A stretch of 47,500 nt of DNA, taken from positions 55,001 to 102,500 of the forward strand of contig JACVTC010000015.1 in NCBI GenBank assembly GCA_016946835.1. Direction: 5' to 3'. Below are positions 411-21,300 of the stretch, piece after piece. Origin of the DNA: Neocallimastix lanati (nom. inval.) (Eukaryota > Neocallimastigomycota > Neocallimastigomycetes > Neocallimastigales > Neocallimastigaceae). Position 1 is the first letter of the stretch. Each line of letters starts with the position of its first letter. The notes below the pieces were generated by a model. That model was not told where the DNA came from and did no database searches. It worked only from the letters and a program-made list of their open reading frames with translations. The position numbers and the translations under genes were made by a program.

Positions 411-3400
411 TTAATTATAATCATCATTTATATAATTATAATAGTTGTAAATTAAAGCAATGTAAGGATCATTATTTTTTAGTAAATCACTTAGGGTATT
501 TTTATTATTTTCAGGATCATGAATTGAAAAGTCAGAACTCTTCAAATTACTGTAGTCATAATCACCATTGTAACCGTAAACAGTAACCCAGTATTCACGA
601 CCTCCAGATAAACCACAATATGGAACAGCATTACCATTTGCTAAACTCTCTAAAACAACAGATAAATCTGGGTCATTTATAAATACAAATTTTAAATCAT
701 CAAAACTGGAAAAGTCAATATCACATCCATAGAAATTCATTTTCTTAGCCACATCATATGGAGTGTAGTCCATTCCTTGAATTTGGTTCAGAGCCATGGT
801 AATGGAGGTAATACAACTACCTTCCTTACTAATGGTACAACCGGTAGCAAATTCATTTGGGTAATTAGCTTTTTTAAGTGGTGAGACATCAAGTTTAATC
901 TTATTATATTGTGTTTCTTCAGATGGTTCATCAAGACAACATTGAACGTTTTCGCTACCACGGCATACATCATAGGCAACATTATAAGAAGGACATAAAG
1001 TTTTATTAATATCAATACAAGTACCATTTATACCATTGCTAGAACACTTTTTTCCAACGTCTACTTCTTGATTTGATGGAGTTTCTTCTTCCTCTTCAAG
1101 ACAACATTGGACGTTACCATTACCTGAACATATATCATAGGCAACATGATAAGTTTCACATTTAGTTTGATTGATATCAATACAGGTACCATTAATACCG
1201 TTACTAGAACACTTTTCACCGACAGCTGTATTCTCTCCTGATGTATTTTGCTCTTCTAGAGGTTCTTCCTCTTCTTCGAGACAACATTCAACGCTATCGC
1301 CACCAGAGCATAGACCATAGGCAACATGATAAGTTTCACACTTAGTTTGATTTATATCAATACAAGTGCCATTTATACCATTACTAGAACATTTTTTTCC
1401 AACACCACTTGCCTCAAGACAACATCCAATATTATATCCACCTTTACATATATTATAGGCAATATTATTAGACTCACAAGTACTTTGATTAGTATCAATA
1501 CAAGTACCATTTAGACCTTCGTAAGAACACTTTTCTCCAACACCTTCTGGTTTTTCCTCCTCTTCAAGGCAGCATCCAACGTTATCACCTTGACAGGCAT
1601 CAAAATTAACATTAAACGTTTTACAGGGTGTTTCATTGACATCAATACAAATACCATTTATACCTCCACTAGAACATTTTTTTCCAACTTCTGTTGGAGG
1701 TGCTTCCAGACAACATCCAACAAAATCACCTAAACATTGATCATAAGCCATATTATTACTTTCACATGTCGTTTCATTAACATCAATACATGTTCCATTC
1801 AAGCCATTATAAGAACATTTTTTACCAACTTCTGTTGGAGGTGCTTCCAGACAACATCCAACAAAATCACCTAAACATTGATCATAAACCATATTATTAC
1901 TTTCACATGATGTTTCATTAACATCAATGCATGTTCCATTCAAGCCATTGTAAGAACATTTTTTACCAACTTCTGTTGGAGGTGCTTCCAGACAACATCC
2001 AACAAAATCACCTAAACATTGATCATAAGCCATATTATTACTTTCACATGTCGTTTCATTAACATCAATGCATGTTCCATTCAAGCCGTTGTAAGAACAT
2101 TTTTTACCAACTTCTGTTGGAGGTGCTTCCAGACAACATCCAACAAAATCACCTAAACATTGATCATAAACCATATTATTACTTTCACATGATGTTTCAT
2201 TAACATCAATGCATGTTCCATTCAAGCCATTGTAAGAACATTTTTTACCAACATCTGATGGTTCTGATGGTTCTGATGGATCTGATGGTAGGGATTCTAA
2301 GCAACATCGAACGTTATCACCACCTGGACATCTACCAGAAACAACATTACCACTATCACATGTACTCGTAGTAACATCTATACATGTTCCGCTTGAACCT
2401 CCGTAAGTACAGATTGAACCAACACCTGATCCACCTGAAGGTACATCAAGACAACATCTAATATTATTTCCACCTGGACACTTACCACTAACAATATTAC
2501 CACTACTACATTGGCTCTTACTAACATCAATGCAAGTACCATTTGATTTATTGTCAGTACATCTTGTTCCAACACCTGTTGATCCTGATGGTCCATTGTT
2601 TAAACAACATCTGACATTATTTCCACCTGGACAAAGACCAGAAACAAGTTCACCATTGCATTTACTGATATTAGTATTGATACAAGAACCGCTTCTATTT
2701 CCACTGGAGCAGCTTTTTCCAACACCCGATCCATCTCCAACACAACATCTAACATTATCTCCACCTGGACAAAGACCAGAAACAAGTTTTCCATTACAAT
2801 TTTGAACATTAGTATTTATACAAATACCACTGACATTTCCGCTAGAACAGGTTTTTCCAACACCCGATCCATCCCCAACACAACATTTAACGTTATTCGT
2901 ACCTGGACAAAGACCAGTAACAAGACTACCATTACACTTGGTTGTATTGGTATTAATACATTTACCATTTACACCTTTATAATTACAGCTTTTTCCAACG
3001 CCGGTTGAATCATCAGGATCTAGGCAACATCTAACGTTACTAGCCCCTGGGCAAAGACCAGAAACAAGATCGCCACTACATTTTTTAACATTAGTATTTA
3101 TACAGGTACCTCTTCTATTTCCACTTTTACAGCTTGCTCCAACACCTGTTGATCCAGTATTATTGCTGATACAACATCTAACATTACTAGTACCTGGACA
3201 TCTACCAGTTATAAGTTTACCATCACATTTATCCGAATTAGTATCAATACATTTTCCTGTTTCACCTGCGTAGGTGCATATTGTTCCAACTCCTGTGTTG
3301 GAATTTCCTGATGATTTTTTAGGGAGACAACATCTAACGTAGGAAGCACCAGGACATTTATTAGAAACAAGATCACCATCACAACTTTTTTGGTTAGTAT

Positions 3401-5522
3401 TAATACATGTACCAGTTCTACTTCCGTCAGTACACTTTTGACCAACTCCAGTATTGGAATTTCCTGTTGAATCAGTTGTGATACAGCATCTAACATTGGA
3501 AGCACCTGGACATTTATTAGAAATAAGACTACCATCACATTTGGTCACATTAGTATTAATACAAGTACCAGTTCTACTTCCGTCAGTACACTTTTGACCA
3601 ACTCCTGTGTTGGAGTTTCCTGTTGAATCAGTTGTGATACAACATCTAACATTGGAAGCACCAGGACATTTATTAGAAATAAGACTACCATTACATTTGG
3701 TCACATTAGTATTAATACAAGTACCAGTTCTACCTCCATCAGTACACTTTTGACCAACTCCTGTGTTGGAATTTCCTGTTGAATCAGTTGTGATACAACA
3801 TCTAACATTGGAAGCACCAGGACATTTATTAGAAATAAGACTACCATTACATTTGGTCACATTAGTATTAATACAAGTACCAGTTCTACTTCCATCAGAA
3901 CACTTTTGACCAACTCCTGTGTTGGAGTTTCCTGTTGAATCAGTTGTGATACAACATCTAACGTTGGAAGCACCAGGACATTTATTAGAAATAAGACTAC
4001 CATTACATTTGGTCACATTAGTATTAATACAAGTACCAGTTCTACTTCCATCAGAACACTTTTGACCAACTCCTGTGTTGGAATTTCCTGTTGAATCAGT
4101 TGTGATACAACATCTAACATTGGAAGCACCTGAACATTTATTAGAAATAAGACTACCATTACATTTGGTCACATTAGTATTAATACAAGTACCGGTTCTA
4201 CTTCCATCAGAACACTTTTGACCAACTCCTGTGTTGGAGTTTCCTGTTGAATCAGTTGTGATACAACATCTAACATTGGAAGCACCTGGACATTTATTCG
4301 AAATAAGACTACCATTACATTTGGTCACATTAGTATTAATACAAGTACCAGTTCTACTTCCATCAGAACACTTTTGACCAACTCCTGTGTTGGAGTTTCC
4401 TGTTGAATCAGTTGTGATACAACATCTAACGTTGGAAGCACCAGGACATTTATTAGAAATAAGACTACCATTACATTTGGTCACATTAGTATTAATACAA
4501 GTACCAGTTCTACTTCCATCAGAACACTTTTGACCAACTCCTGTGTTGGAGTTTCCTGTTGAATCAGTTGTGATACAACATCTAACATTGGAAGCACCAG
4601 GACATTTATTAGAAATAAGACTACCATTACATTTGGTCACATTAGTATTAATACAAGTACCAGTTCTACTTCCATCAGAACACTTTTGACCAACTCCTGT
4701 GTTGGAGTTTCCTGTTGAATCAGTTGTGATACAACATCTAACATTGGAAGCACCAGGACATTTATTAGAAATAAGACTACCATTACATTTGGTCACATTA
4801 GTATTAATACAAGTACCAGTTCTACTTCCATCAGAACACTTTTGACCAACTCCTGCATCGGAATTTCCTGATGTTTTTTTAGGGAGACAGCATCTAATGT
4901 TGGAAGCCCCTGGACATTTATTAGAAACAAGATCACCATCACAACTTTTTTGGCTAGTATTAATACAAGTACCAGTTCTACTTCCATCAGAACACTTTTG
5001 ACCAACTCCTGCATCGGAATTTCCTGATGTTTTTTTAGGGAGACAGCATCTAATGTTGGAAGCCCCTGGACATTTATTAGAAACAAGATCACCATCACAA
5101 CTTTTTTGGCTAGTATTAATACAAGTACCAGTTCTACTTCCATCAGTACACTTTTGACCAACTCCTGTGTTGGAATTTCCTGAGCTTCCTGAACTTCCTG
5201 AACCTCCTGAGTTTGACTTTTTAATGCAACACTTGAAGTCAGAACCACCTGGGCATTTGCCAGAATAAGGCGTACCTGAACATTCATTAGAGAACATACA
5301 ACTACCAGTTATGCCATCAACAACGCATGAAATATTTTCGCAGCATTTTATATTATTACCATCATTTGGACAATTACCATTACTGGTACTACCTTTATAT
5401 TGACTACAGGTACCAGTTGCAATACAAATACCTTTCCTTCCATTAGCACATTTACCATTAACAGCAAACACAGTTGGTATGGCTGCTAATAATGATAAAA
5501 CAAATCTTGTATTGATATGCAT
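411..5522 (-). CDS. Giant secreted six-cysteine-repeat protein with C-terminal C39-like domain (paralog 1)
   Basis: The protein is 1703 aa from the ATG at 5522; an in-frame TTG two codons upstream (5528) gives a longer but less likely start. Residues 1-20 are a signal peptide ending PTVFA. Two atypical N-terminal Cys modules follow, then about 28 modules of the form C-x7-C-x7-C-x8-9-C-x6-8-CC with signatures VGxxC, GTCI and CPGxxNVRCC. Modules 3-11 are almost identical; the distal ones diverge and gain Glu/Pro linkers. Residues about 1536-1703 resemble the C39-like papain fold (Peptidase_C39_2): a GSCITSITMAL block with the presumptive nucleophile Cys1570, a WVTVYGY strand and HDP with Asp1669. 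The His expected just before the Trp is Tyr1644, so activity is doubtful. Related Cys modules occur in fungal secreted proteins, some with putative bacterial-wall hydrolases (from memory). A role in binding bacterial or fungal wall polymers is inference. No intron is evident; the stop is TAA. Confidence 0.9.
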   Translation of the reverse strand: MHINTRFVLSLLAAIPTVFAVNGKCANGRKGICIATGTCSQYKGSTSNGNCPNDGNNIKCCENISCVVDGITGSCMFSNECSGTPYSGKCPGGSDFKCCIKKSNSGGSGSSGSSGNSNTGVGQKCTDGSRTGTCINTSQKSCDGDLVSNKCPGASNIRCCLPKKTSGNSDAGVGQKCSDGSRTGTCINTSQKSCDGDLVSNKCPGASNIRCCLPKKTSGNSDAGVGQKCSDGSRTGTCINTNVTKCNGSLISNKCPGASNVRCCITTDSTGNSNTGVGQKCSDGSRTGTCINTNVTKCNGSLISNKCPGASNVRCCITTDSTGNSNTGVGQKCSDGSRTGTCINTNVTKCNGSLISNKCPGASNVRCCITTDSTGNSNTGVGQKCSDGSRTGTCINTNVTKCNGSLISNKCPGASNVRCCITTDSTGNSNTGVGQKCSDGSRTGTCINTNVTKCNGSLISNKCSGASNVRCCITTDSTGNSNTGVGQKCSDGSRTGTCINTNVTKCNGSLISNKCPGASNVRCCITTDSTGNSNTGVGQKCSDGSRTGTCINTNVTKCNGSLISNKCPGASNVRCCITTDSTGNSNTGVGQKCTDGGRTGTCINTNVTKCNGSLISNKCPGASNVRCCITTDSTGNSNTGVGQKCTDGSRTGTCINTNVTKCDGSLISNKCPGASNVRCCITTDSTGNSNTGVGQKCTDGSRTGTCINTNQKSCDGDLVSNKCPGASYVRCCLPKKSSGNSNTGVGTICTYAGETGKCIDTNSDKCDGKLITGRCPGTSNVRCCISNNTGSTGVGASCKSGNRRGTCINTNVKKCSGDLVSGLCPGASNVRCCLDPDDSTGVGKSCNYKGVNGKCINTNTTKCNGSLVTGLCPGTNNVKCCVGDGSGVGKTCSSGNVSGICINTNVQNCNGKLVSGLCPGGDNVRCCVGDGSGVGKSCSSGNRSGSCINTNISKCNGELVSGLCPGGNNVRCCLNNGPSGSTGVGTRCTDNKSNGTCIDVSKSQCSSGNIVSGKCPGGNNIRCCLDVPSGGSGVGSICTYGGSSGTCIDVTTSTCDSGNVVSGRCPGGDNVRCCLESLPSDPSEPSEPSDVGKKCSYNGLNGTCIDVNETSCESNNMVYDQCLGDFVGCCLEAPPTEVGKKCSYNGLNGTCIDVNETTCESNNMAYDQCLGDFVGCCLEAPPTEVGKKCSYNGLNGTCIDVNETSCESNNMVYDQCLGDFVGCCLEAPPTEVGKKCSYNGLNGTCIDVNETTCESNNMAYDQCLGDFVGCCLEAPPTEVGKKCSSGGINGICIDVNETPCKTFNVNFDACQGDNVGCCLEEEEKPEGVGEKCSYEGLNGTCIDTNQSTCESNNIAYNICKGGYNIGCCLEASGVGKKCSSNGINGTCIDINQTKCETYHVAYGLCSGGDSVECCLEEEEEPLEEQNTSGENTAVGEKCSSNGINGTCIDINQTKCETYHVAYDICSGNGNVQCCLEEEEETPSNQEVDVGKKCSSNGINGTCIDINKTLCPSYNVAYDVCRGSENVQCCLDEPSEETQYNKIKLDVSPLKKANYPNEFATGCTISKEGSCITSITMALNQIQGMDYTPYDVAKKMNFYGCDIDFSSFDDLKFVFINDPDLSVVLESLANGNAVPYCGLSGGREYWVTVYGYNGDYDYSNLKSSDFSIHDPENNKNTLSDLLKNNDPYIALIYNYYNYINDDYN
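1689..2252 (-). repeat. 4 x 141-bp in-gene tandem array in ABAB order
   Basis: Four consecutive 47-residue Cys modules (VGKKCSYNGLNG...) sit in exact 141-bp register. They alternate between two versions, SCESNNMVYDQC and TCESNNMAYDQC, in the order A-B-A-B. That pattern indicates duplication of a 282-bp dimer rather than step-by-step single-unit copying. Confidence 0.85.
3291..5162 (-). repeat. 12 x 156-bp tandem array encoding 52-aa Cys modules
   Basis: The VGQKC start of each module recurs at exactly 156-bp spacing; 1872 bp equals 12 units. Units 3-11 are nearly identical at the DNA level, differing at scattered single bases (for example one CPG to CSG change near 4130). Units 1, 2 and 12 carry a different centre (QKSCDGDLVSNKC). 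This indicates recent expansion or gene conversion, and copy number is likely to vary between isolates. Confidence 0.9.
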
Positions 5523-5595
5523 TATCAATTTTTTTTTTTTTTTTTTTAATTATTTTTGATTTTGTAAAAAATCAAAAATAAGTGATATATATGAC

Positions 5596-5603
5596 TATTT
5601 ATA
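5596..5603 (-). promoter_or_regulatory. TATA box of paralog 1
   Basis: On the minus strand the sequence reads TATAAATAGTC about 75 nt upstream of the ATG at 5522. The same 11-mer lies 60-70 nt upstream of the paralog at 10726, which supports a conserved core promoter. Confidence 0.6.
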
Positions 5604-6988
5604 TTCTAATATTATCTATAAAATTTTAATTTGTTATAATTTTTTTTTTTTTTTGTTGCAGCCTTAGTTATTACAAATTTAAACTTTATTTATTCATTTA
5701 TTAATTAATATGAATATTTATTTTTAGATTAATTTTTTAAAAAAAAAATATATATATATATATTACATATATATTACAATAAAATAAAAATATAATAAAA
5801 AAAAAAAAAAAAAAAAAAAAAACAATATTAAAAATTATCCAAATTTGACAAAATGTGTTAATTCTTTTTTTCCATACTTAATTTGGATACTTTTTTTTTT
5901 TATATTATATTTTTTATTTATTAATTGGAAATTATTATTATTTATTAATTATTAAAATTTAAAAATAAAATAGCAAAAAAGGGTTTTTTTTTTTTTTTGT
6001 TTCGTAATTTTTTAATATTAATAAATTTATTTAAATTAAATTTTTAATTAAACAATCACTAAAATTTCCAAATAAAATCCTAAATTTTAATTCGTTACCT
6101 AAAGAAATTGTTACATCTTTGTCATTTTAAATTTTAAATTAATCATTTATTAAAATTTAATAAGAAAAAAAAAAAAATTTATTTTGTTACTTAAAGAAAT
6201 GTAACGTCTTAGTCATTATATTAATTATATTATTTTTAATTTATTTAAAATACTATTATAATAAATATATATGATTTTAATTTATTATTATTTTATTATT
6301 ATATATATATTATATTTATTATTATTAATAGTTTTTTTTTATTAAAGAAAAAAAAAAAAAAATAAAAAAATAAAAATTATAAATAAAATGTAAAATAAAT
6401 TATTAAATTATAATACAATTAAGAAATTTTTATAAGCCCTATAAAAGGTGTATTTACTAATTTATCTATTTATCTATTTATTAGTTTTTTTTACTATATT
6501 TATTAATATATTATTTATTATATTTATTAATATATTTATTAATATATTAATTATTTTTTTTTTTATTTTATTTATAATTTTATTTTTTATTTTTTTTATT
6601 ATTTTATTTATTATTTTATAGTTTTATTTATTGTTTTATTTATTTATTATTTATTTATTATTTATTTATTATTTATTTATTAGTTTATATTATAATTATT
6701 AATATTTTATTTAATTATTTATATGGATATAATATAATACATTTTTTTTATAACTTATTGTTTTTTTTTTTTTTTTTTTGTTAAATATTTTTCTTATTGT
6801 GATTATTCTTTTTGTGATTAATTACATATATATTTATATATATCATTTTTTTTATCTTTTTATAATAAATTTATATATATATATATATATATTATTTTTT
6901 AAATTAATTAAATATTAATATTTTTTATTTCTAATATTAAAAAAAAAAATTTTTTTTTTATAAATATTTTTAATTATAATAATATTTA
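5604..6988. other. Intergenic region between the two Cys-rich paralogs
   Basis: This AT-rich spacer is upstream of the gene starting at 5522 and downstream of the gene ending at 6989. Besides the conserved block, it has two copies of a GTTACATCTTTGTCATT / GTAACGTCTTAGTCATT motif near 6110 and 6200. A third copy lies near 11190 upstream of the second gene. On the minus strand two of the three read TGACTAAGA, an AP-1/Gcn4-like half-site. The rest is homopolymer and ATTT repeats with no coding frame. Confidence 0.5.
5822..5890 (-). promoter_or_regulatory. Conserved upstream block of the paralog pair (copy 1)
   Basis: The block contains an inverted pair, ATCCAAATTTGA and, about 35 nt further on, TTAATTTGGATA, preceded by CAATATTAAAAATT. 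A matching block lies at 10917-10980 upstream of the second paralog. It lies 300-370 nt before the ATG. It could be a retained regulatory palindrome or simply undecayed duplicated DNA. Confidence 0.45.
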
Positions 6989-9900
6989 TTAATAATCATT
7001 GTTTATATAATAATAATAATTGTAAATTAAAGCAATGAAAGGTTCATTACTCTTTAAAAGTTCTCTTAGAGTAGTTTTATTAGTTTCTGGATCATAAATT
7101 AAAAAGTCGGAACTCTTTAAACTATTGTAGTCATAATCCCCGGTATAACCGTAAACAGTAACCCAGCGTTCATGACCTCCAGATAAACCACAATATGGTA
7201 CAGAATTACCGTTCACTAAACTTTCTAAAATAACAGATAAATCTGGTTGGTAAATGTTTACAAAATCTAAATCACTGTAGCTTGAATAGTCAGCATCACA
7301 TCCAAAGAAATTCATTTTCTTAGCAACATCATATGGAGTGTAGTTCAAACTGTGAATTTGATTAAGAGCCATGGTAATCGAGGTAATACAACTACCTTCC
7401 TTACTAATGGTACAGCCAGTAGTAAATTCATTTGGGTAATTAGCTTGTTTAAGTAGTGAGGCGTCGAGTATAATCTTATTATATTGTGTTTCTTCGGATG
7501 GTTCATCGAGACAACATTGAACATTACCACTTGAACATATATTATATGCAACATTATAAGTTTCACATCTAGTTTGACTAATATCAATACAAGTACCACT
7601 TACACCGTTACTGGAACACTTTTCTCCAACGCCTATTTCCGTATTTCCTGAAGTTTCTGGAATTTCTTCCTCTTCTTCGAGACAACATTGAACATTATCA
7701 TTTCCTAGGCATTCACCATAAGCAACATTATAAGTTGGACATAAAGTTTGATTAATATCAATACAAGTACCATTTACCCCATCTTTGGAGCACTTGGCTC
7801 CGACACCTTCTTCTGGTTCAGGTTTTTCCTCCTCATCAAGACAACATCCTATATTATCCCCTCCTGAACAGGCATTAAAGTCTACATTATATGTTTTACA
7901 TGGAGTTTCATTAGTATCAATACAAATACCATTGATGCCTTGGCTAGAGCATTTTAATCCAACCACTGTTTCTGGATCTTTTGGGATTTCCGAAGTTTCT
8001 GGAGTTTCTTCCTCTTTTTCGAGACAACATTGAACATTATCATTACCTGGACATTCACCATAAGCAACATTATAAGTTGGACATAAAGTTTGATTAATAT
8101 CAATACAAGTACCATTTACCCCATTTTTAGAGCACTTGGCTCCGACACCTTCTTCTGGTTCAGGTTTTCCCTCCTCATCAAGACAACATCCTATATTATC
8201 CCCTCCTGAACAGGCATTAAAGTCTACATTATATGTTTTACATGGAGTTTCATTCGTATCAATACAAATACCATTTATACCTCGGCTAGAGCAGGTTTTT
8301 CCAATGTCAGATGGAGGTTCTTCCTTTTTTGTGACACAACATTGAATAGCATCACCACCTGGACATAAACCGTAATAAATATTTTCAATATGGCAACTAG
8401 ACGTATTCAAATTAATACAAATACCACTTAAATCTTCAATAGAACATTCTGCACCAATAGCATTGCTATCATCCTCATTTGATAACGTTATATCCTGTCC
8501 TTCTTCCAACATACAGCATTGAATGTTATCACTACCTGGACATAAGTCACTCAAAATGTGATCACTTGGACACCGAGATGATTTATAATTAATACAAACA
8601 CCGTTCTTACTTCCATCGGAACAGTGTTGTCCAATAACATAGTCATCATCATTATTTAATGGTTCTTCTGGTTGTTCCGGTTCTTCCACTTCGAGACAAC
8701 ATCTTACATTATTAGGACCAGGGCATCTACCAGAAATAACATTACTACTCTTACATTGAGTTTTATCCACATCAATACATATTCCGCTTTTACCTCCGTA
8801 ATTACACTTTGTTCCAACGCCTGATTCATTAGTTAATGGGGCATCAAGACAACATTTTACGTTATTACCACCTGGGCATTTTCCAGTAACAATATTACCA
8901 CTACTACATTGACTACTGTTAACATCAATACAAGTACCGTTTGCATTTCCATCAGAACATCTTGTTCCAACACCTTTTGAATCATTTTTGTTGAGACAAC
9001 ATTTAACATTATTACCTCCTGGGCAAAGACCAGAAACAATTTCACCATCATTACATTTATTTGTATTTGTATTTATACAGATACCGCTTCTGGTTCCACT
9101 AGAACAGCTTTTTCCAACACCGACTTGATCATTACCAGAGGATTTAAGACAACATTTAATGTTATTAGCACCGGGACAAAGGCCAGAAACAAGTTCACCA
9201 TCACATTTATTTGCATTAGTGTTTATGCAGGTACCACTTCTTCCTCCACTAGAACAGACTTTTCCGACTCCCGTTCCATCGCCGATACAACATTTAACGT
9301 TATTACCACCTGGACATTTACCAGTAATAAGACTACCACCACATTTAGTTGTGTTAATATTAATACAAGTACCTTCTAAACCTTGGTCACTTTTACATTT
9401 TTCTCCAACGCCTGTTTCCTTTATGCTTCCTTCAAGACAACATTTAACGTTATTACCACCTGGACAGAGACCAGAAGCTAGACTACCATTACATTTAGTA
9501 GCATTTGTATCAATACAAGTACCGCTGACACCCTTGTTATTTTTACATTTTGTTCCAACAGCTGGAGGAAGACAACATTTAACGTTGGTAGATCCTGGAC
9601 ATTTACCAGAAATAAGATCACCACTGCAACTATTCGTTTTAGTATTGATACAAGTACCACTTCTACTGCCATCAGAGCAACTTTTTCCAACACCTGATAA
9701 ATCTTCGGAGGGAAGACAACATTTAACGAAAGAAGCACCTGGACATTTACCAGAAACCAGATTACCATTACAACGACCAGTATTAGTATTGATGCAAGTA
9801 CCACTTCTACTGCCGTCAGAGCAACTTTTTCCTACACCTGATAAATCATGAGGGAGACAACATTTAACCATAGCATCACCTGGGCATTTACCAGTTACAA

Positions 9901-10726
9901 GATCACCGTTACAATTATTAGTACTTGTATTAATACATGTACCACTTCTACTTCCACTAGTACAGCTTTTGCCTACACCGGAGAGATCTGGGCCAGGAGG
10001 AATACAACATTTAACGAAAGAAGCCCCTGGACATTTACCGGAAACAAGATTACCATTACAACCACTACTATTAGTATTGATACAAGTACCACTTTTACTT
10101 CCGTCAGAACAACTCTTTCCAACTCCTGATAAATCATGAGGGAGACAACATTTAACGAAAGAAGCGCCTGGACACTTACCAGAGACAAGATCACCATTAC
10201 AACCACTACTATTAGTATTGATACAAGTACCACTTCTACTTCCATTAGAACAGCTTTTTCCAACACCTGATAAATCATGAGGGAGACAACATTTAATGTT
10301 AGCAGCCCCTGGACATTTTCCAGAAACAAGATCACCATTACAACCACTACTATTAGTATTGATGCAAGTACCATGTCTATTTCCGTCGGAGCAGCTTGTT
10401 CCAACACCAGCGTTTGGATTTTTTTTGATACAACACTTAAAGTCAGAACCACCCGGACATTTGCCAGAATAAGTCGTACCTGAACATTCATTAGCGAACA
10501 TACAACTACCGCTTTCACCATTAACGTTACATGAAATATTTTCACAGCATTTTATATTATTACCATCTCTTGGACAGTTACCATTACTGGTTCTACCTCC
10601 ATAATTACTACAAGTACCAGTTGCAATACAAATACCATTCCTTCCATTGGCACATTTGCCATTAACAGCAAACACAGTAGGTATGGCTGCTAATAATGAT
10701 AAAACAAATCTTGTATTGATATGCAT
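6989..10726 (-). CDS. Secreted six-cysteine-repeat protein with C-terminal C39-like domain (paralog 2)
   Basis: The protein is 1245 aa from the ATG at 10726 (an in-frame TTG lies at 10732). Its N-terminus is almost identical to paralog 1, with a 20-residue signal peptide and two atypical Cys modules. About 19 VGxxC modules follow; they are more diverged from each other than in paralog 1 and use KSCSDGSRSG and CPGASFVKCC variants. Acidic Glu/Pro linkers appear near the C-terminus. Residues about 1079-1245 are the C39-like domain, with Cys1113 in GSCITSITMAL and Asp1212 in YDP. The residue just before the WVTVYGY strand is Arg, and a His sits two positions earlier (GGHERW), so the catalytic triad is not canonical here either. 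The tandem arrangement, shared N- and C-termini and shared promoter blocks show a local gene duplication. The function is not known; wall binding or interaction with bacteria is inference. Confidence 0.9.
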   Translation of the reverse strand: MHINTRFVLSLLAAIPTVFAVNGKCANGRNGICIATGTCSNYGGRTSNGNCPRDGNNIKCCENISCNVNGESGSCMFANECSGTTYSGKCPGGSDFKCCIKKNPNAGVGTSCSDGNRHGTCINTNSSGCNGDLVSGKCPGAANIKCCLPHDLSGVGKSCSNGSRSGTCINTNSSGCNGDLVSGKCPGASFVKCCLPHDLSGVGKSCSDGSKSGTCINTNSSGCNGNLVSGKCPGASFVKCCIPPGPDLSGVGKSCTSGSRSGTCINTSTNNCNGDLVTGKCPGDAMVKCCLPHDLSGVGKSCSDGSRSGTCINTNTGRCNGNLVSGKCPGASFVKCCLPSEDLSGVGKSCSDGSRSGTCINTKTNSCSGDLISGKCPGSTNVKCCLPPAVGTKCKNNKGVSGTCIDTNATKCNGSLASGLCPGGNNVKCCLEGSIKETGVGEKCKSDQGLEGTCININTTKCGGSLITGKCPGGNNVKCCIGDGTGVGKVCSSGGRSGTCINTNANKCDGELVSGLCPGANNIKCCLKSSGNDQVGVGKSCSSGTRSGICINTNTNKCNDGEIVSGLCPGGNNVKCCLNKNDSKGVGTRCSDGNANGTCIDVNSSQCSSGNIVTGKCPGGNNVKCCLDAPLTNESGVGTKCNYGGKSGICIDVDKTQCKSSNVISGRCPGPNNVRCCLEVEEPEQPEEPLNNDDDYVIGQHCSDGSKNGVCINYKSSRCPSDHILSDLCPGSDNIQCCMLEEGQDITLSNEDDSNAIGAECSIEDLSGICINLNTSSCHIENIYYGLCPGGDAIQCCVTKKEEPPSDIGKTCSSRGINGICIDTNETPCKTYNVDFNACSGGDNIGCCLDEEGKPEPEEGVGAKCSKNGVNGTCIDINQTLCPTYNVAYGECPGNDNVQCCLEKEEETPETSEIPKDPETVVGLKCSSQGINGICIDTNETPCKTYNVDFNACSGGDNIGCCLDEEEKPEPEEGVGAKCSKDGVNGTCIDINQTLCPTYNVAYGECLGNDNVQCCLEEEEEIPETSGNTEIGVGEKCSSNGVSGTCIDISQTRCETYNVAYNICSSGNVQCCLDEPSEETQYNKIILDASLLKQANYPNEFTTGCTISKEGSCITSITMALNQIHSLNYTPYDVAKKMNFFGCDADYSSYSDLDFVNIYQPDLSVILESLVNGNSVPYCGLSGGHERWVTVYGYTGDYDYNSLKSSDFLIYDPETNKTTLRELLKSNEPFIALIYNYYYYINNDY
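7631..8305 (-). repeat. Duplicated two-module unit inside paralog 2
   Basis: Two consecutive dimers of 342 and 333 bp each encode a GICIDTNETPCKTYNVDF module followed by a GTCIDINQTLCPTYNVAYG module. The order is again A-B-A-B, as in the array at 1689-2252 of the paralog, so dimer duplication has happened in both genes. Confidence 0.8.
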
Positions 10727-10786
10727 TATCAATTGATTTTAATTTTTGATTTAAGGAATAAAAAAATATATAATGACATGAAGGAC

Positions 10787-10794
10787 TATTTATA
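10787..10794 (-). promoter_or_regulatory. TATA box of paralog 2
   Basis: On the minus strand the sequence reads TATAAATAGTC about 65 nt upstream of the ATG at 10726, matching the element upstream of paralog 1. Confidence 0.6.
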
Positions 10795-10916
10795 CATTTT
10801 ATATTTTTTTATTATCATTTTTAAATTATCAATAAAATCTAAATTTATTTCCATTTAAAAAAAAAAAAAAAAAGAAAAAAAAAAAAAAAAAAAAAAAGAC
10901 GACGAAAAAGAAAAGA

Positions 10917-10980
10917 CAATATTAAAAATTATCCAAATTTGATAAATGTATTTATTTTCCTTAACTTAATTTGGATAATT
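10917..10980 (-). promoter_or_regulatory. Conserved upstream block of the paralog pair (copy 2)
   Basis: CAATATTAAAAATTATCC, AATTTGATAAATG and TTAATTTGGATAATT match the block at 5822-5890 in order and spacing. It is 190-255 nt upstream of the ATG. Confidence 0.45.
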
Positions 10981-11581
10981 TTTGTTATTGTTTTTTTTTT
11001 TTTTTTTAATTGAAAATTAATTATGATTTTCTTTTTCTAATAAAAAATTAAAAAAAAATTTTTTTTTTTTTTTTTTTGTGTTCTATATTAATTTATTTAT
11101 TTTAAATTAAATTTAAATTAATCAATAACCAAAATTATCCATAAAATAAAACTTGAATTCTATTTGTTTTCCTATAAATAATATCTGAAATGTAACTTCT
11201 TAGTCATTTTATTAGCAATTACTATTTTAATTTGAAGTACAAATTTAAGAAAAGATATTTTGACATTAATAATAATATATTATTGTAATTTATTATTATT
11301 CAATTATTATATATATCATATTTATTAATGATTATTGACTATTTTTGTCATTATTAAAAAATATATATATATATATATATATATATTGTTTATTAGTAAG
11401 AACTGCAATATAAAATTCAGTACAATCATTTCACAAGTACTATAATAACTTGTTATAGGGATTTAAAAACTTACATTTCCTATTATTAAAATAGCTACCC
11501 AAAACAAATTTACCATAGTACATCACAAGAAAATTTGAAACCTTTTATAAAATAAAAGAAAAAAATATTTAATTATTCAAA

Positions 11582-11633
<52 letters not shown>

Positions 11634-14517
11634 TATTGAAAAACTAAATTTTAATTTTTATTTTTATTTTTTTTTTTTTATTTATTCTATTTTATTCTAT
11701 TATATGTTTTTTATTTTTTATATCGATTTTGAAATTTATATTATATATTATATTTATAAATATTTAGAATATATTATCTTATTAATTATTTTTATCAAAT
11801 TGTAATAAAATATTTTCCAAAAAAAAAAAAAAAAATAAAAAAAAAAAAAACTGTATATATATACATATAATAATAATTATAATAATTAATAATAATTAAT
11901 AATTAATTTAATTTAATATGACCAATAAATATAGATTTATTAAAAATTTTTAAATTTATTATCATTTTTTGTATTTAAAAAAAAATAATAATAATAATAA
12001 AAATATTAATATTAATATTCTCTAATTTATTATTTATAGGTTTTATTTTACCTTTTTTTTTTTTTTTAATAAATGAAAATGTCCAATAATTTATAATACA
12101 TTAAAATTTAGTAACAATTGTTTAAATTCATTATAAATATATAAAAAATTATTAATTATTATTATTTATTTATTATCTATTTAGTATTTATTATTTATAA
12201 ATATTTATTTATTTATTAATATTTATTTATTTATTATTTTTTTATTTTTTAATATTAATTAATTTATTTATTTATTAATATTTATTTATTATTTATATAT
12301 CTATTTATTTATTAATGAATTAATTGGAAAAATGAAAATAAAAAAAAAAATACATATATATATATATAATTTGTATACTTTTGTTAAAAGTAGTTTACAT
12401 TTATATGATTGATAGTAAAATCTCCATTTATAAAATTTTTTAATTTCATAAATAATTTATAAAAAAATTAAAATTAAAATTAAAATTAATTGTTGAGAAT
12501 ATTTTATTATTATATTATATCATATATTATATTACATTATATCATATATTATTTATTAAATCATATATTATATTATTTCATATATTATTTCTTATATTAT
12601 TTTAAATAGGAATCCATATTTTCCAATTAATATAATAAAAATGAATTATACATTATGTTTTAAAATTTTTAAAAATAAATAAATAAATAAATTTCCATTA
12701 CTCATAACACAAAAAAATTGTTTTTAAATATTATTTTTTATTAAATTAAGTTTTTATAATTTTTAAAATTAAAATTTTAATAATAAAAAAAAAAACATTT
12801 TTAATTATTAATTATATTAATATATTCTATATCCATATATTAAACTTTAATTATTAATTAAATTATTTTTTATTGGTTTTATAATTTTTTTTAATTTATT
12901 TTAAATTAAATTTTAATTATTAATTAAATTATTTTTATTGGATTTCAAATTTTTTTAATTTATTTTATATTAAAATATAAAATATGGATAATTTTAATTC
13001 TCAAATTAAAATTAAAATTATTTTGTTATAAATGGAATTAACCAATAAAAAAAAGTTTAATTATTAATATTATTTAATTATTATTTATTTATATTATGAA
13101 TATTATTTAATTATTATTTATTTATATTGTGAATCTTATTTATATTATGAATCTTATTTATTATGAATATTATTTATATTATGAATCCTATTTATTTTAT
13201 TAAATATTGTTTATTATTTATTTATTTATTTATTTATTATATAATTTTAAGTTAATAAAAATATTTATTTAGTATATCATTTTAAATTCATTACACATAT
13301 TAATATTCGGTTAGTTAGGTCATAATAAAGAATATTATTCACATTCATTGTTAAATACATAAAGAAAGAAAAAAGAAAATTATTGATATATATATTCTAT
13401 ATAAGATCTTATCTAAAGAATTTTTAATTGTGAATAGTGTAATTATAATAAATTTAATCATCTTATTGTTAATAAAAATATATAAAAATATATAATATAT
13501 ATAAAAATAATATATATCAAATTTATTATATTGTATTATTATTAATATTATTGAATTATTATTTATATTATTATTTATTATTATTATTATTATGGAATTA
13601 TTGTTATTATTATGGAATTATTATTTATTATTTTTTAATTCTATTTTTGAATAAAAAAAGAAAATTTTTTAATATTGTTAAAATAGATTTTTTTTTTTTT
13701 AGAGTATAATTTATTTTTACAATAAATTGCATATTATGTTATTTGTCATATAAGATATGTAAATTATAAATAATAACTAAATGTATTTTATTCTGAACAA
13801 AAATAAAAAGAAAATAAAGAAAATAGAGAAAATGAAAAATGAAAAATGAAATAAAATAGAAATGGTTTAACTATCAAACCTTGTGTTTATTATTTATTTT
13901 TATTTTTTTTTTTATTGATATAATTATATATATTAATGAATATTTATGAATATTTATGAATATTTATGTATATTAATAAATATTTATGTATATTAATGAA
14001 TATTTATGTATAGTAACAGATAATTATAATAAGTTTAGAGAATTAAGTCCACATAATTAATTAAATATAAATTTATTTATGATTAATAAAAAAAAAATAA
14101 TAATCATAATCATAATAATCATTTTTATTGGTTTAATTATTCATTAAATTTTTATTAAATATTTTTTATTTAATATGTCTTAAAAAGAAAAAAAAATTTA
14201 TTTATTTGTTTATTTATTTATTATTTATTATTTATTTATTATTTATTTATTTTATTTATTTATTATCTATTATTTAATTATTTATTTAAAAAAAATTTTT
14301 TTTTTCTTTTTTTTTTTTTTTTTATAATTTAAAAAGGGACCATATAAATTTTTTTTTAATAAAATTTAAATAATAACTAATCCCCATAATTTTAAAGAAA
14401 CATTACAATATATTATATATATTATATATATATAATTTTTAAATCATTAAATAAATAAATAATAAATACATAAATACCTAAAACTTTTTTTCTATGTATA
14501 ATAATTATAAATAGAAC
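10981..14517. other. Gene-poor AT-rich region
   Basis: No sustained coding frame is visible on either strand. The content is poly(A)/poly(T) runs, (TA)n near 11360 and 11605, and ATTT-type repeats. It also has a short direct-repeat cluster at about 13075-13230 (TTATTTATATTATGAAT units) and another at about 13930-14010 (GAATATTTATG units). The first few hundred bases are the upstream region of paralog 2. Confidence 0.6.
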
Positions 14518-18825: not shown

Positions 18826-19272
18826 GAATATATTAAATAATAATAATAGTAATATTTAAAAAATATTAAATAAATTTTTATATAATTAAAAATAGAATTA
18901 TGTATTATAAATAAAGAAAAATAATCATTTCACCACTTAAACTACTGAAGAAAATAGATGAAATTTATTGGAGAAAATCTACAGAAGTATTACCTTCGGA
19001 GAATGGAATAATTCAAATTAATTTTGAAAATATTAGAGACCCTAAATATAAAAAAAAAAAAATAAAAATAAAAAATAAAAAAAAAAAAAAAAAAAAAAAA
19101 ACAGTAGGTTTTCTGAAAAATCTAGAAAAAAAATGTGATTTTCATTGATCTTAATACTAATAAATTGGAATCACTTTTCATAATGTATAAATATTTTATA
19201 AAAAATAATAAATTATAAAATAATTTATAAATAATTATCTTAAAAAATTAAAAAAAAATTAAAAAGTAATAA
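18826..19272 (+). repeat. First copy of a duplicated reductase-tail segment
   Basis: This segment and 19823-20231 share the same order of words: TATTAAATAATAATAATAGT, ACTACTGAAGAAAATAGATG, TATTGGAGAAA, CCTTAAATATAA or its equivalent, AAATTGGAATCA and AAAAAGTAATAAATAT. In frame it reads SPLKLLKKIDEIYWRKSTE and then FENIRDPKY, plausible as the C-terminus of the reductase domain. The spacing between copies is about 1 kb. Confidence 0.65.
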
Positions 19273-19565
19273 ATATGAAATATAAAATATAATATATAAA
19301 ATTAAAAATATAAAATATAAAATAAAGAAATAAAAAATTAAAAATTAATAATAAAAAAAAATAAAAAAATAAAAAATAAAAAAATAAAAAAAAATAAAAA
19401 AAAATAAAAAATTAATAAATAAAAATTAGAAAATAAAAATAAAGAAATAAAATAAATAAAAATTAAAAAAAAAATAAAAATTAGAAAATAAAAAATAAAA
19501 AATAAAAAAAAAATTAAAAAAAAAAAAATTATAAAATTATAAAAAAATTAAAAAAAAAAAATTAA

Positions 19566-19596
<31 letters not shown>

Positions 19597-19822
19597 GAAA
19601 TAAAAAAAATAAAAAAATAAAAAAATAAAAATAGAAATTAGAAAATGAAAATAAAAAAAAATAAAAAATATAAATTATAAAATATAAAAATATAAAATTT
19701 AAAATAAAAAATAAAAAATAAAATATAATAATAAAAAAATAAAATAAAGAAATAAAAAATAAAAGATAAAAAATAAAAATAAGAAATAAAAAATAAAAAA
19801 AAAAATAATAAATAAATAAAAT
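19273..19822. repeat. A-rich degenerate repeat between the duplicated tails
   Basis: The sequence is almost entirely A with scattered T and rare G (AAAAATAAAAAAT, AAAATTAGAAAATAAAA). No coding capacity is seen. Confidence 0.75.
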
Positions 19823-20231
19823 GAATATATTAAATAATAATAATAGTAATATTTAAAAAAAAATATTAAATAAAATTTTATTTAATTGTAAATAGAATTA
19901 TAAATTAAAAAAATAAAAAAAAAAATTCATTTTACCACTTATACTACTGAAGAAAATAGATGAAACATATTGGAGAAATGCAACAGAAGAATCGCTTTCA
20001 GAGTATAGAGGTGGAACTCGTCATAATAATTTTGATAATAATAAAAGCCTTAAATATAATTAAAACAACAGGCTTTATGAATTATCTAGAAAAAAAAAGT
20101 GTACTTCATTGGTCTGAATACTATTAAATTGGAATCAAATTTAATAATTTATAAATATTTTAAAAAAAAATAATATATAAAATAATTTATAATTAATAAT
20201 CTTAAAAAATTAAAAAACTAAAAAGTAATAA
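19823..20231 (+). repeat. Second copy of the duplicated reductase-tail segment
   Basis: Homologous to 18826-19272. This copy keeps more of the reading frame: LILLKKIDETYWRNATEE, then FDNNKSLKYN and NRLYELSRKKKCTSL. It contains its own base differences, so the duplication is not recent. Confidence 0.65.
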
Positions 20232-21300
20232 ATATATAAAAATAAAAATATAAAAATATAAAAATATAAAAATATAAAAAATAAAGAAATAAAAATATAT
20301 AAATATAAAATATAAAAAATAAAAAAATATAAAAAATAAAAAAATATAAAAAATAAAAAAATATAAAAAAAATAAAAATATAAAAATATAAAAAAATAAA
20401 AAAATATAAAAATATAAAAAAATACAAAAATATAAAAAATATAAAAAATATAAAAATATAAAAAATATAAAAATATAAAAAATATAAAAATATAAAAAAA
20501 AAAGTATAAGATAAAAAAAAATAAAAAGATAAAAAAAAAAAAAAAAGATAAAAAGATAATAAAAAAGTATTAAAGATAAAAAAATAAACAAATAAAATAA
20601 AAAATAAAAAATAAAAAATATAAGATAAAAAAAATAAATAATATAAAATAAATAAAAATATAAAAAATAAAAAAAAAAGTATAGGATAAAAAAAAATAAA
20701 AAGATAAAAAAAAATAAAAAGATAAAAAAAAAAAATATATATATAAAAAGATAATAAAAAAGTATTAAAGATAAAAAAATAAACAAATAAAATAAAAAAT
20801 AAAAAATATAAGATAAAAAAATAAATAATATAAAATAAATAAAAAGTAAAGAAATGAAAAAAAAAATAAAAGATAAAAAAAAATATAAAATATAAAATAA
20901 AAAACAAAAAAAAATAATAAAGAAATAAAAAATTAAAAAATAAAAAAAAAAAAAAAAAAAAAAAAATAAAGAAATAAAAAATAAAAAAAATTGCAAATTA
21001 AAAAATAAAAAATATATAAATAAAAAAAATAAAATATATAATAAAAATAAAATATAAAAATATAAAATATAAAAATATAAAATATAAAATATAAAATATA
21101 AAATATAAAATATAAAATATAAAATATAAAATATAAAATATAAAATATAAGATATAAGAAATAAAAAATAAAGAATAAAGAATAAAGAATAAAGAATAAA
21201 AAAAATAAAAACATAAAAATAAAAAAAATAAAAAATATAAAAATAAAAAATAAAAATTAAAAAATTAAAAAAATGAAAATGAAAAAAGAATAAAAAACAA
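20232..21300. repeat. A-rich satellite, (ATATAAAA)n and (AAAATATAAA)n
   Basis: About 1.07 kb has an A-rich top strand, with blocks near 20500-20620 and 20670-20830 that repeat each other (AGTATAAGATAAAAAAA, AAAAGTATTAAAGATAAAA). The complementary strand is open only because T-rich DNA reads as Phe/Ile/Leu/Tyr; it is not a gene. Confidence 0.85.

Follow-up and report, generated by a model that had tools for sequence, protein, structure and literature searches.

Two genes on the minus strand of a 47,500-nucleotide stretch of the Neocallimastix lanati genome (the window; GenBank contig JACVTC010000015.1, our contig C57:55001-102500, within a searched genome of 199 Mb in 762 contigs) encode long strings of six-cysteine modules that end in a domain related to C39 peptidases, with apparent changes at the catalytic positions. 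We call these genes paralog 1 and paralog 2. Our preferred reading, held with slightly less than even confidence, is that the product of each gene is secreted without an anchor, binds bacterial cell walls multivalently, and carries a non-catalytic C39-like head. Specifically, the disulfide-rich modules, 30 in one protein and 21 in the other, would form the binding array. The head would descend from an acquired bacterial wall-type peptidase of SH3–SH3–C39 layout, would have lost catalysis, and would be kept for recognition or structure, serving as a further domain for binding or capping. The outcome would be agglutination or sticking of bacteria. The grounds for proposing wall binding are the partners of the module, in this genome and in published proteins, and the descent of the head. 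We infer secretion, lack of an anchor, a bacterial rather than a fungal or plant wall as the target, agglutination, and lateral acquisition.

The arrays are defined by their cysteines. By script count, paralog 1 contains 184 (30 × 6 + 4) and paralog 2 contains 130 (21 × 6 + 4), totals that agree with the 30 and 21 modules reported by a first-pass annotation of this DNA. The four extra cysteines of each protein all reside in the C-terminal domain, and the linkers harbor no stray cysteine. Every one of the 51 modules keeps its six cysteines and a G-x-C motif, and 37 have C-P. Spacing between cysteines is 8-7-8-7-0 in 24 modules, 8-7-9-7-0 in 15, and 8-7-9-6-0 in 6, such that 45 of 51 fall into three closely similar spacings; the other six display three further ones. 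In paralog 1, modules 1 and 2 constitute an N-terminal pair, and modules 3–14 and 22–25 are near-identical tandem expansions. Paralog 2 possesses a separate expansion, modules 17–20, in which 17 matches 19 at 97% and 18 matches 20 at 95%. Between the paralogs, modules 1 and 2 each have their own counterpart as best match (86% and 82%), and some inner modules also pair in this way, with modules 17, 19, 20, and 21 of paralog 1 joined to modules 9, 12, 13, and 14 of paralog 2. Judged by module sequence, the expansions of the two genes arose separately.

The same module occurs elsewhere in the genome. A hidden Markov model (HMM) built from the 51 window modules scores in all eight other module proteins on which it was tried, each of them first found with window modules, and in none of 180 shuffled control sequences at E 10. 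It detects no module in the C39 protein encoded on contig C13, which is described below. The N-terminal module pair, whole or in part, is present at 14 places in the genome, two of which are the window genes, and further module matches lie on contigs C710 and C500. In the other replicons searched, a pair of modules from late in the array gave no match in plasmids, and the N-terminal pair of paralog 2 was not found in viral contigs.

What the module is joined to offers a first indication of its role. A Pfam scan took in 12 further module proteins (L009–L018, L020, and L081, but neither L019 nor the frame on C500), and three of the 12 have wall-hydrolase domains: L010 has NlpC/P60, L020 has GH25, and L081 (G000:C710:328700-331000, read without its 5' end) combines a glucosaminidase, two six-cysteine modules by pattern, a hevein domain, and NlpC/P60. 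The best solved relative of L081 is the peptidoglycan hydrolase FlgJ; on its predicted domains, L081 is a multi-domain bacterial-wall hydrolase. These three proteins lend some support to the suggestion of the first-pass annotation that the string could act as a multivalent wall binder. L011 carries a hevein domain alone, and L017 has a PLA2G12-like match just below the cut-off (32.4 versus 34 bits). Identification of L013 as a glucosaminidase by eye is unsupported, as the protein has no Pfam family over the cut-off and no clear solved relative; no clear solved relative was found for L009 either. Three adjoining genes at G000:C334:560309-568688 (L012, L018, and L015) encode a signal-like start, a tandem six-cysteine pair, a membrane-spanning-like stretch recognized by eye, and a long Asn-rich tail. 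Their products are possible surface receptors or anchors for the ligand of the module.

A repeat of this kind has been described. According to the parts of PMC7379824 available to us, 382 proteins, 301 of them fungal, contain cysteine-rich repeats that were originally noticed in rusticalin, a protein of ascidians; the repeat is short, has absolutely conserved cysteines and conserved Gly and Pro positions, and is usually present in several copies. There, 124 of the repeat proteins have known domains; 98 of these proteins carry prokaryote-type domains and 63 carry bacterial-wall-hydrolysing ones, and the Neocallimastix californiae proteins mentioned include one with Glucosaminidase plus an NlpC-type endopeptidase and one with GH25. 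The authors suggest a possible action of the repeats on bacterial walls in concert with lytic enzymes. Another 258 repeat proteins have no annotated domain and were left unstudied in that work; relatives of the window pair may therefore be among them. The phrase "undescribed functional system" in the first-pass annotation is too strong, because the module, as far as the covered text goes, fits a repeat published with wall-lytic domains in fungi that include Neocallimastix, and because the C39-like domain has bacterial relatives. Long module arrays joined to a C39-like pseudo-enzyme did not appear in the literature searched, which was mostly non-subscription and taken apart from supplementary tables.

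A papain-like fold of the C-terminal domain, set beforehand as a test of the C39-like assignment, was found with AlphaFold, Foldseek, and VIA. The AlphaFold model of the paralog 1 domain has a predicted local distance difference test score (pLDDT) of 88.1 and a predicted template modeling score (pTM) of 0.87; a run on the three fungal domains only (pLDDT 33.7) was discarded. Those three are the C39-like copies of the genome, namely, the window pair and the C13 copy (G000:C13:391052-391474; L004:4052-4975), which belongs to a 308-residue protein of signal–SH3–SH3–C39 layout with SH3_3 at E 1.5e-7 and 27% identity to the bacterial protein L208 over 292 residues. In hhalign, a profile built from these copies aligns with a set of 21 C39_2 domains from prokaryotes and viruses (97%, E 3.6e-11); with the three fungal domains alone, the profile yields no credible solved relative (best E 0.57). 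The Pfam family Peptidase_C39_2 (PF13529, cut-off 24 bits) is not reached: the C13 copy scores 13.4 bits (E 0.11), the two window domains show no match at E 10, and a search with the family over the whole genome returns nothing at E 0.01. NCBIfam and PHROGs likewise give no C39 family for the C-terminal domain; in the C13 protein, the SH3 part matched.

Relatives of the domain exist in bacteria. A profile search among 391 genomes, all from the class to which an Oscillospiraceae genome belongs (presumably Clostridia), gave 11 matches at E <= 0.01. Seven of these matches (L207–L213) reside in frames of 329–373 codons with a signal-like start; all seven have two SH3_3 matches, and six exceed the C39_2 cut-off. 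We do not count the remaining four as close relatives. The genomes of L207–L213 belong to one order, and of the 31 genomes searched there, 12 have matches of 1e-12 or better; in a phylum sample, 4 of 398 genomes match at 1e-10, one of them drawn from that order by choice of center. An initial search of six genomes had given matches at E 1 in two, both weak. Our set of close bacterial SH3–SH3–C39 rows has 12 members (L207–L213, L223–L225, L228, and L229). The alignment that contains them, A5, was made without L214–L217 and L231, which are different, short, or partial, and without L205, L206, L218–L222, L226, and L227, which repeat other loci. L215 and L216 (short stretches with stops) and L217 (within a long frame that looks unrelated) are not counted as relatives. 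A GCAITS-like DNA pattern retrieved 5 viral and at least 118 genome stretches, 29 of which passed a filter that also required His; Cys and His in the pattern-derived rows (21 in alignment A3, 12 in A5) are therefore present by construction. No pattern-based relative of the domain was confirmed among 87 stretches in viral contigs or 108 in genome contigs. Searches by tblastn with the C13 domain return nothing in phages at E 0.01 and, at E 10, weak partial matches to two plasmid records and one phage record. The tree groups the three fungal copies in a single clade (100/100) with the window pair inside (99/99). A lateral origin of the fungal domain is likely on these comparisons.

The case for a non-catalytic head comes from the catalytic positions. 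In A5, the Gln-Cys-His-Asp positions are Q-C-H-D in all 12 close bacterial rows, Q-S-H-D in the C13 copy, Q-S-R-D in paralog 2, and K-S-Y-D in paralog 1. Cys, His, and Asp are present in every one of the other 14 prokaryotic and viral rows, 12 of which were chosen for Cys and His; Gln, which we take to be the oxyanion residue, is present in 12 of the 14. At the helix-start column, all three fungal copies appear to have Ser in place of the catalytic Cys, and all three keep the Asp of the DP motif; the His that precedes the W/F-V strand is retained in the C13 copy and replaced in the window pair. The paralog 1 domain has a single His, His131. The first-pass annotation had noted GSCITSITMAL, WVTVYGY, and DP blocks, all of which are present, and had placed Tyr (paralog 1) or Arg (paralog 2) before WV with a His two residues earlier only in paralog 2, as we also find. 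Its choice of the GSCITSITMAL cysteine as nucleophile needs correction: this residue aligns one position after the catalytic Cys of the bacterial relatives. Its suggestion of a pseudo-peptidase is strengthened beyond the original argument by the apparent Ser at the nucleophile position in three of three copies, by the additional loss of Gln in paralog 1, and by the His that the C13 copy still has.

The assignment of Ser to the nucleophile position depends on the register of the alignment. Without gaps, the invariant Gly and the invariant Pro lie 20 apart in all three fungal and all 12 close bacterial rows. With two gaps costing 22, the ungapped register surpasses the Cys-on-Cys register in 36 of 36 pairs, by 5–19 points, and MAFFT, BLASTP, and hhalign all selected it. 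Cys33 and the CITS stretch are invariant in the three fungal copies. Ser is encoded by AGT in both window genes and by TCT in the C13 copy, and a single step separates either codon from the Cys codon TGT; the codons at the His position are TAC (paralog 1), CGC (paralog 2), and CAT (C13 copy). These codons hint at separate losses; passage via Thr or a double change would also give the AGT/TCT difference. With its Ser-His-Asp, the C13 copy may be an enzyme that uses Ser for Cys, or it may represent an earlier step on the way to loss. Our guess is that Cys25 and Cys33 form a disulfide in the window domains. In the C13 copy, not all cysteines can pair, since the aligned domain has three.

The pair is under purifying selection. 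Between the paralogs, nonsynonymous over synonymous divergence (dN/dS) in the C-terminal domain is 0.111/0.419 by NG86 and 0.111/0.497 by YN00 (ratios 0.27 and 0.22), and in the N-terminal 99 codons it is 0.072/0.264 and 0.073/0.298, respectively (ratios 0.27 and 0.24). Comparison of the window domains with the C13 copy gives 0.36–0.38/1.19–1.44 (NG86 only), with dS near saturation. These ratios, the residue changes, and the separate module expansions together suggest a head that is retained, catalytic residues that are not, and an array whose length changes quickly.

Both reading frames are uninterrupted from end to end; the listing made with translation table 11 puts the start at TTG, two codons upstream of the ATG from which we count. 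The predicted products have computed masses of about 175 kDa (pI, isoelectric point, 5.5) and about 129 kDa (pI 4.8). Residues 1–29 are the same in both, MHINTRFVLSLLAAIPTVFA among them, in agreement with the shared signal peptide recorded by the first-pass annotation. No membrane anchor is seen by eye in either protein, and PF00187 (Hevein / Chitin_bind_1) has no match in either at E 1. Guanine-plus-cytosine (GC) content in 1-kb windows is 34–39% within the genes (1001-5000, 7001-10000) and 7–11% in the adjoining windows 6001-7000 and 11001-14000; this contrast, along with the dN/dS of the C-terminal domain, argues that the frames did not arise by chance. The regions upstream of the two genes (5529-6100 and 10733-11300) are alike, at 77% over 309 bases, a figure to be read with care given very AT-rich DNA and a low-complexity filter that was off. 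The duplication may therefore have included the promoter region. Coordinates of the features are collected in the table.

Features of the two window genes, in window coordinates
Feature	Coordinates	Strand	Basis
Paralog 1 coding sequence, 1703 aa from ATG, stop included	411..5522	(-)	open frame, GC contrast
Paralog 1 signal peptide, MHINTRFVLSLLAAIPTVFA	5463..5522	(-)	recognized and bounded by eye; identical in both paralogs
Paralog 1 array of 30 six-Cys modules	936..5450	(-)	pattern count, module alignment
Paralog 1 C39-like papain-fold domain, putative pseudo-peptidase; model residue 1 = Q of QYNKI	411..911	(-)	hhalign, AlphaFold, Foldseek, VIA
Paralog 1 Lys14 (AAA), in place of the Gln of 12/12 close bacterial relatives	870..872	(-)	alignment
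Paralog 1 Ser32 (AGT), nucleophile position; Cys33 next at 813-815	816..818	(-)	alignment
Paralog 1 Tyr107 (TAC), in place of the catalytic His	591..593	(-)	alignment
Paralog 1 Asp132 of the DP motif, kept; His131 just before	516..518	(-)	alignment
Paralog 2 coding sequence, 1245 aa from ATG, stop included	6989..10726	(-)	open frame
Paralog 2 signal peptide	10667..10726	(-)	by eye, from sequence
Paralog 2 array of 21 six-Cys modules	7511..10654	(-)	pattern count, module alignment
Paralog 2 C39-like domain	6989..7486	(-)	78% identical to the paralog 1 domain
Paralog 2 Ser32 (AGT), nucleophile position	7391..7393	(-)	alignment
Paralog 2 Arg107 (CGC), in place of the catalytic His	7166..7168	(-)	alignment
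Paralog 2 shifted His105 (CAT)	7172-7174	(-)	sequence

Two other regions of the window deserve mention. The plus strand at window:38975-40531 encodes a 518-aa protein that looks secreted, for which Pfam gives no match at E 1; its N-terminal part contains Cys, and it also has a long TTSVAEKPEP repeat. Window:19000-21300 is very A-rich and of low complexity, with GC of about 7% and an AT skew of about 0.5 in 19001-21000; its reverse strand can be read for up to 368 codons without a stop, but these specify mainly Phe, Tyr, Leu, and Ile and are not gene-like.

Several points weigh against a non-catalytic binder of bacterial walls. Wall hydrolases are a minority of the module partners in this genome, because seven of the 12 scanned proteins (L009, L012, L013, L014, L015, L016, and L018) have no Pfam family over the cut-off, one has hevein alone, and one has a phospholipase-like match below the cut-off. 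The hevein domains of L011 and L081 keep chitin possible as a ligand. The window module is taken to be a rusticalin-type repeat by its fit to the text description in the covered parts of PMC7379824. The Cys-to-Ser register rests on alignment, the alignment given to AlphaFold already had that register, and a total gap cost below 17 would turn some pairs to the Cys-on-Cys register. Finally, a weakly supported branch (83/31) links the fungal clade to the bacterial SH3–SH3–C39 group, so the tree points to no particular donor. It is conceivable, and in our estimate improbable, that the string instead binds chitin or other fungal wall glycans and that the proteins are structural or protective components of the fungus's own surface. 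Chitin_bind_1 of the hevein type adjoins the module in L011 and L081, N-acetylglucosamine is common to peptidoglycan and chitin, L012, L015, and L018 have their membrane-spanning-like stretch, and the seven proteins named above, which have neither a wall-hydrolase family nor any other over the cut-off, would fit as well. However, of the four proteins with a recognized catalytic partner, three carry bacterial-wall hydrolases (NlpC/P60, FlgJ-like glucosaminidase, and GH25), the fourth is phospholipase-like, and none is a chitinase; moreover, the domain fused to the array is a relative of bacterial C39, and hevein could already provide chitin binding in L011 and L081.

Less probable still is a C-terminal domain that remains an active hydrolase, with Cys33 slid into the nucleophile place or with Ser32 acting, and with another residue as the base, for example His105 of paralog 2 or His131 of paralog 1. 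The invariance of Cys33 and CITS would suit such an enzyme, as would the good local match of the slid CITS to the bacterial CLTT, the preference of some pairs for the slid register at the low gap cost just given, the Asp kept in three of three copies, and the Gln, His, and Asp that accompany Ser in the C13 copy. Against these stand the better score of the ungapped register in every pair at standard cost and the constant Gly-to-Pro spacing. Paralog 1, furthermore, has His131 as its only His, directly beside Asp132, and no Gln, and the His position became a different residue in each paralog (TAC and CGC). We regard as very unlikely the idea that the arrays are a cellulosome scaffoldin whose six-cysteine modules serve as cohesins for dockerin enzymes. 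The very AT-rich spacers, and a module protein with the domains of a published Neocallimastix protein, suggest a genome of the anaerobic-fungus kind, and such fungi, according to the covered parts of PMC8262932, make repeat-rich scaffoldins of more than 500 kDa that are not homologous to components of bacterial cellulosomes and whose cohesin is not identified; the window proteins, by contrast, are of 129 and 175 kDa and have no anchor by eye, and attachment of the module directly to wall hydrolases in short proteins is unexpected of a cohesin. Least credible of all is decay, that is, drifting duplicates that lack a present function. Stepwise change of the catalytic residues and unequal module numbers are compatible with drift, yet frames stay open over 1703 and 1245 codons, dN/dS is low in the head and in the N-terminal 99 codons alike, and the conservation of cysteines, spacings, and cysteine-free linkers across the arrays is intact.

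Anaerobic fungi live amid dense bacteria. Returning to the wall-binding reading, we can extend it to a fuller scenario that, taken as a whole, is rather unlikely: an acquired wall peptidase would have become a non-catalytic head on a 20–30-valent string of disulfide modules, a soluble agglutinin-like protein that captures rumen bacteria, with Cys changed to Ser separately in two lineages and the fungal-specific Cys at +1 free for a disulfide over the former active site. We found little in print on anaerobic-fungal proteins that act on bacteria, and the word "peptidoglycan" is absent from the main texts, as far as covered, of two studies of lateral transfer into anaerobic fungi (PMC6712302 and PMC11291939), while two Neocallimastix proteins of this sort are mentioned in PMC7379824. 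A pseudo-enzyme on a long array, if confirmed, would mean that these fungi hold or mark bacteria besides lysing them. Three paralogs with graded change of catalytic residues, together with intact bacterial relatives, would provide a clear series from acquired enzyme to binding protein.

The window pair can be compared with four known systems. The bacterial SH3–SH3–C39 proteins (Peptidase_C39_2, PF13529) have the fold, the DP motif, the WV strand, and the overall spacing in common with the fungal copies, and the signal–SH3–SH3–C39 layout in common with the C13 copy; in contrast to them, the fungal copies have Ser at the nucleophile position and score below the Pfam cut-off, and the window pair lacks the catalytic His and has a six-cysteine array in place of the SH3 pair. 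Rusticalin-type repeats, by their text description, would resemble the window module in their conserved Cys, Gly, and Pro positions and in their several copies. Like the module in three of the 12 scanned proteins here, they are joined to wall-hydrolysing domains; the window pair itself has a C39-like domain whose catalytic positions are not intact. Specifically, the N. californiae Glucosaminidase plus NlpC protein is similar in make-up to L081, and the GH25 protein to L020. Unlike the window pair, the main text of PMC7379824 features no "C39" and, in the parts covered, no copy numbers or pseudo-enzyme head. The NlpC/P60 and GH19 wall hydrolases that Trichomonas acquired by lateral transfer, as presented in the covered parts of PMC6299479 and PMC12612818, likewise place bacterial-type wall enzymes, some with SH3, in a mucosal eukaryote. 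Those enzymes are shown or predicted to be active, whereas in the window pair the catalytic positions are changed and a long array has taken the place of SH3. Aspergillus fumigatus CwhA (PMC12332128, covered in part) is, similarly, a fungal protein of bacterial wall-hydrolase type, which is secreted and acts on peptidoglycan; unlike the window pair, it unites SH3 and an active NlpC/P60 in a single short protein.

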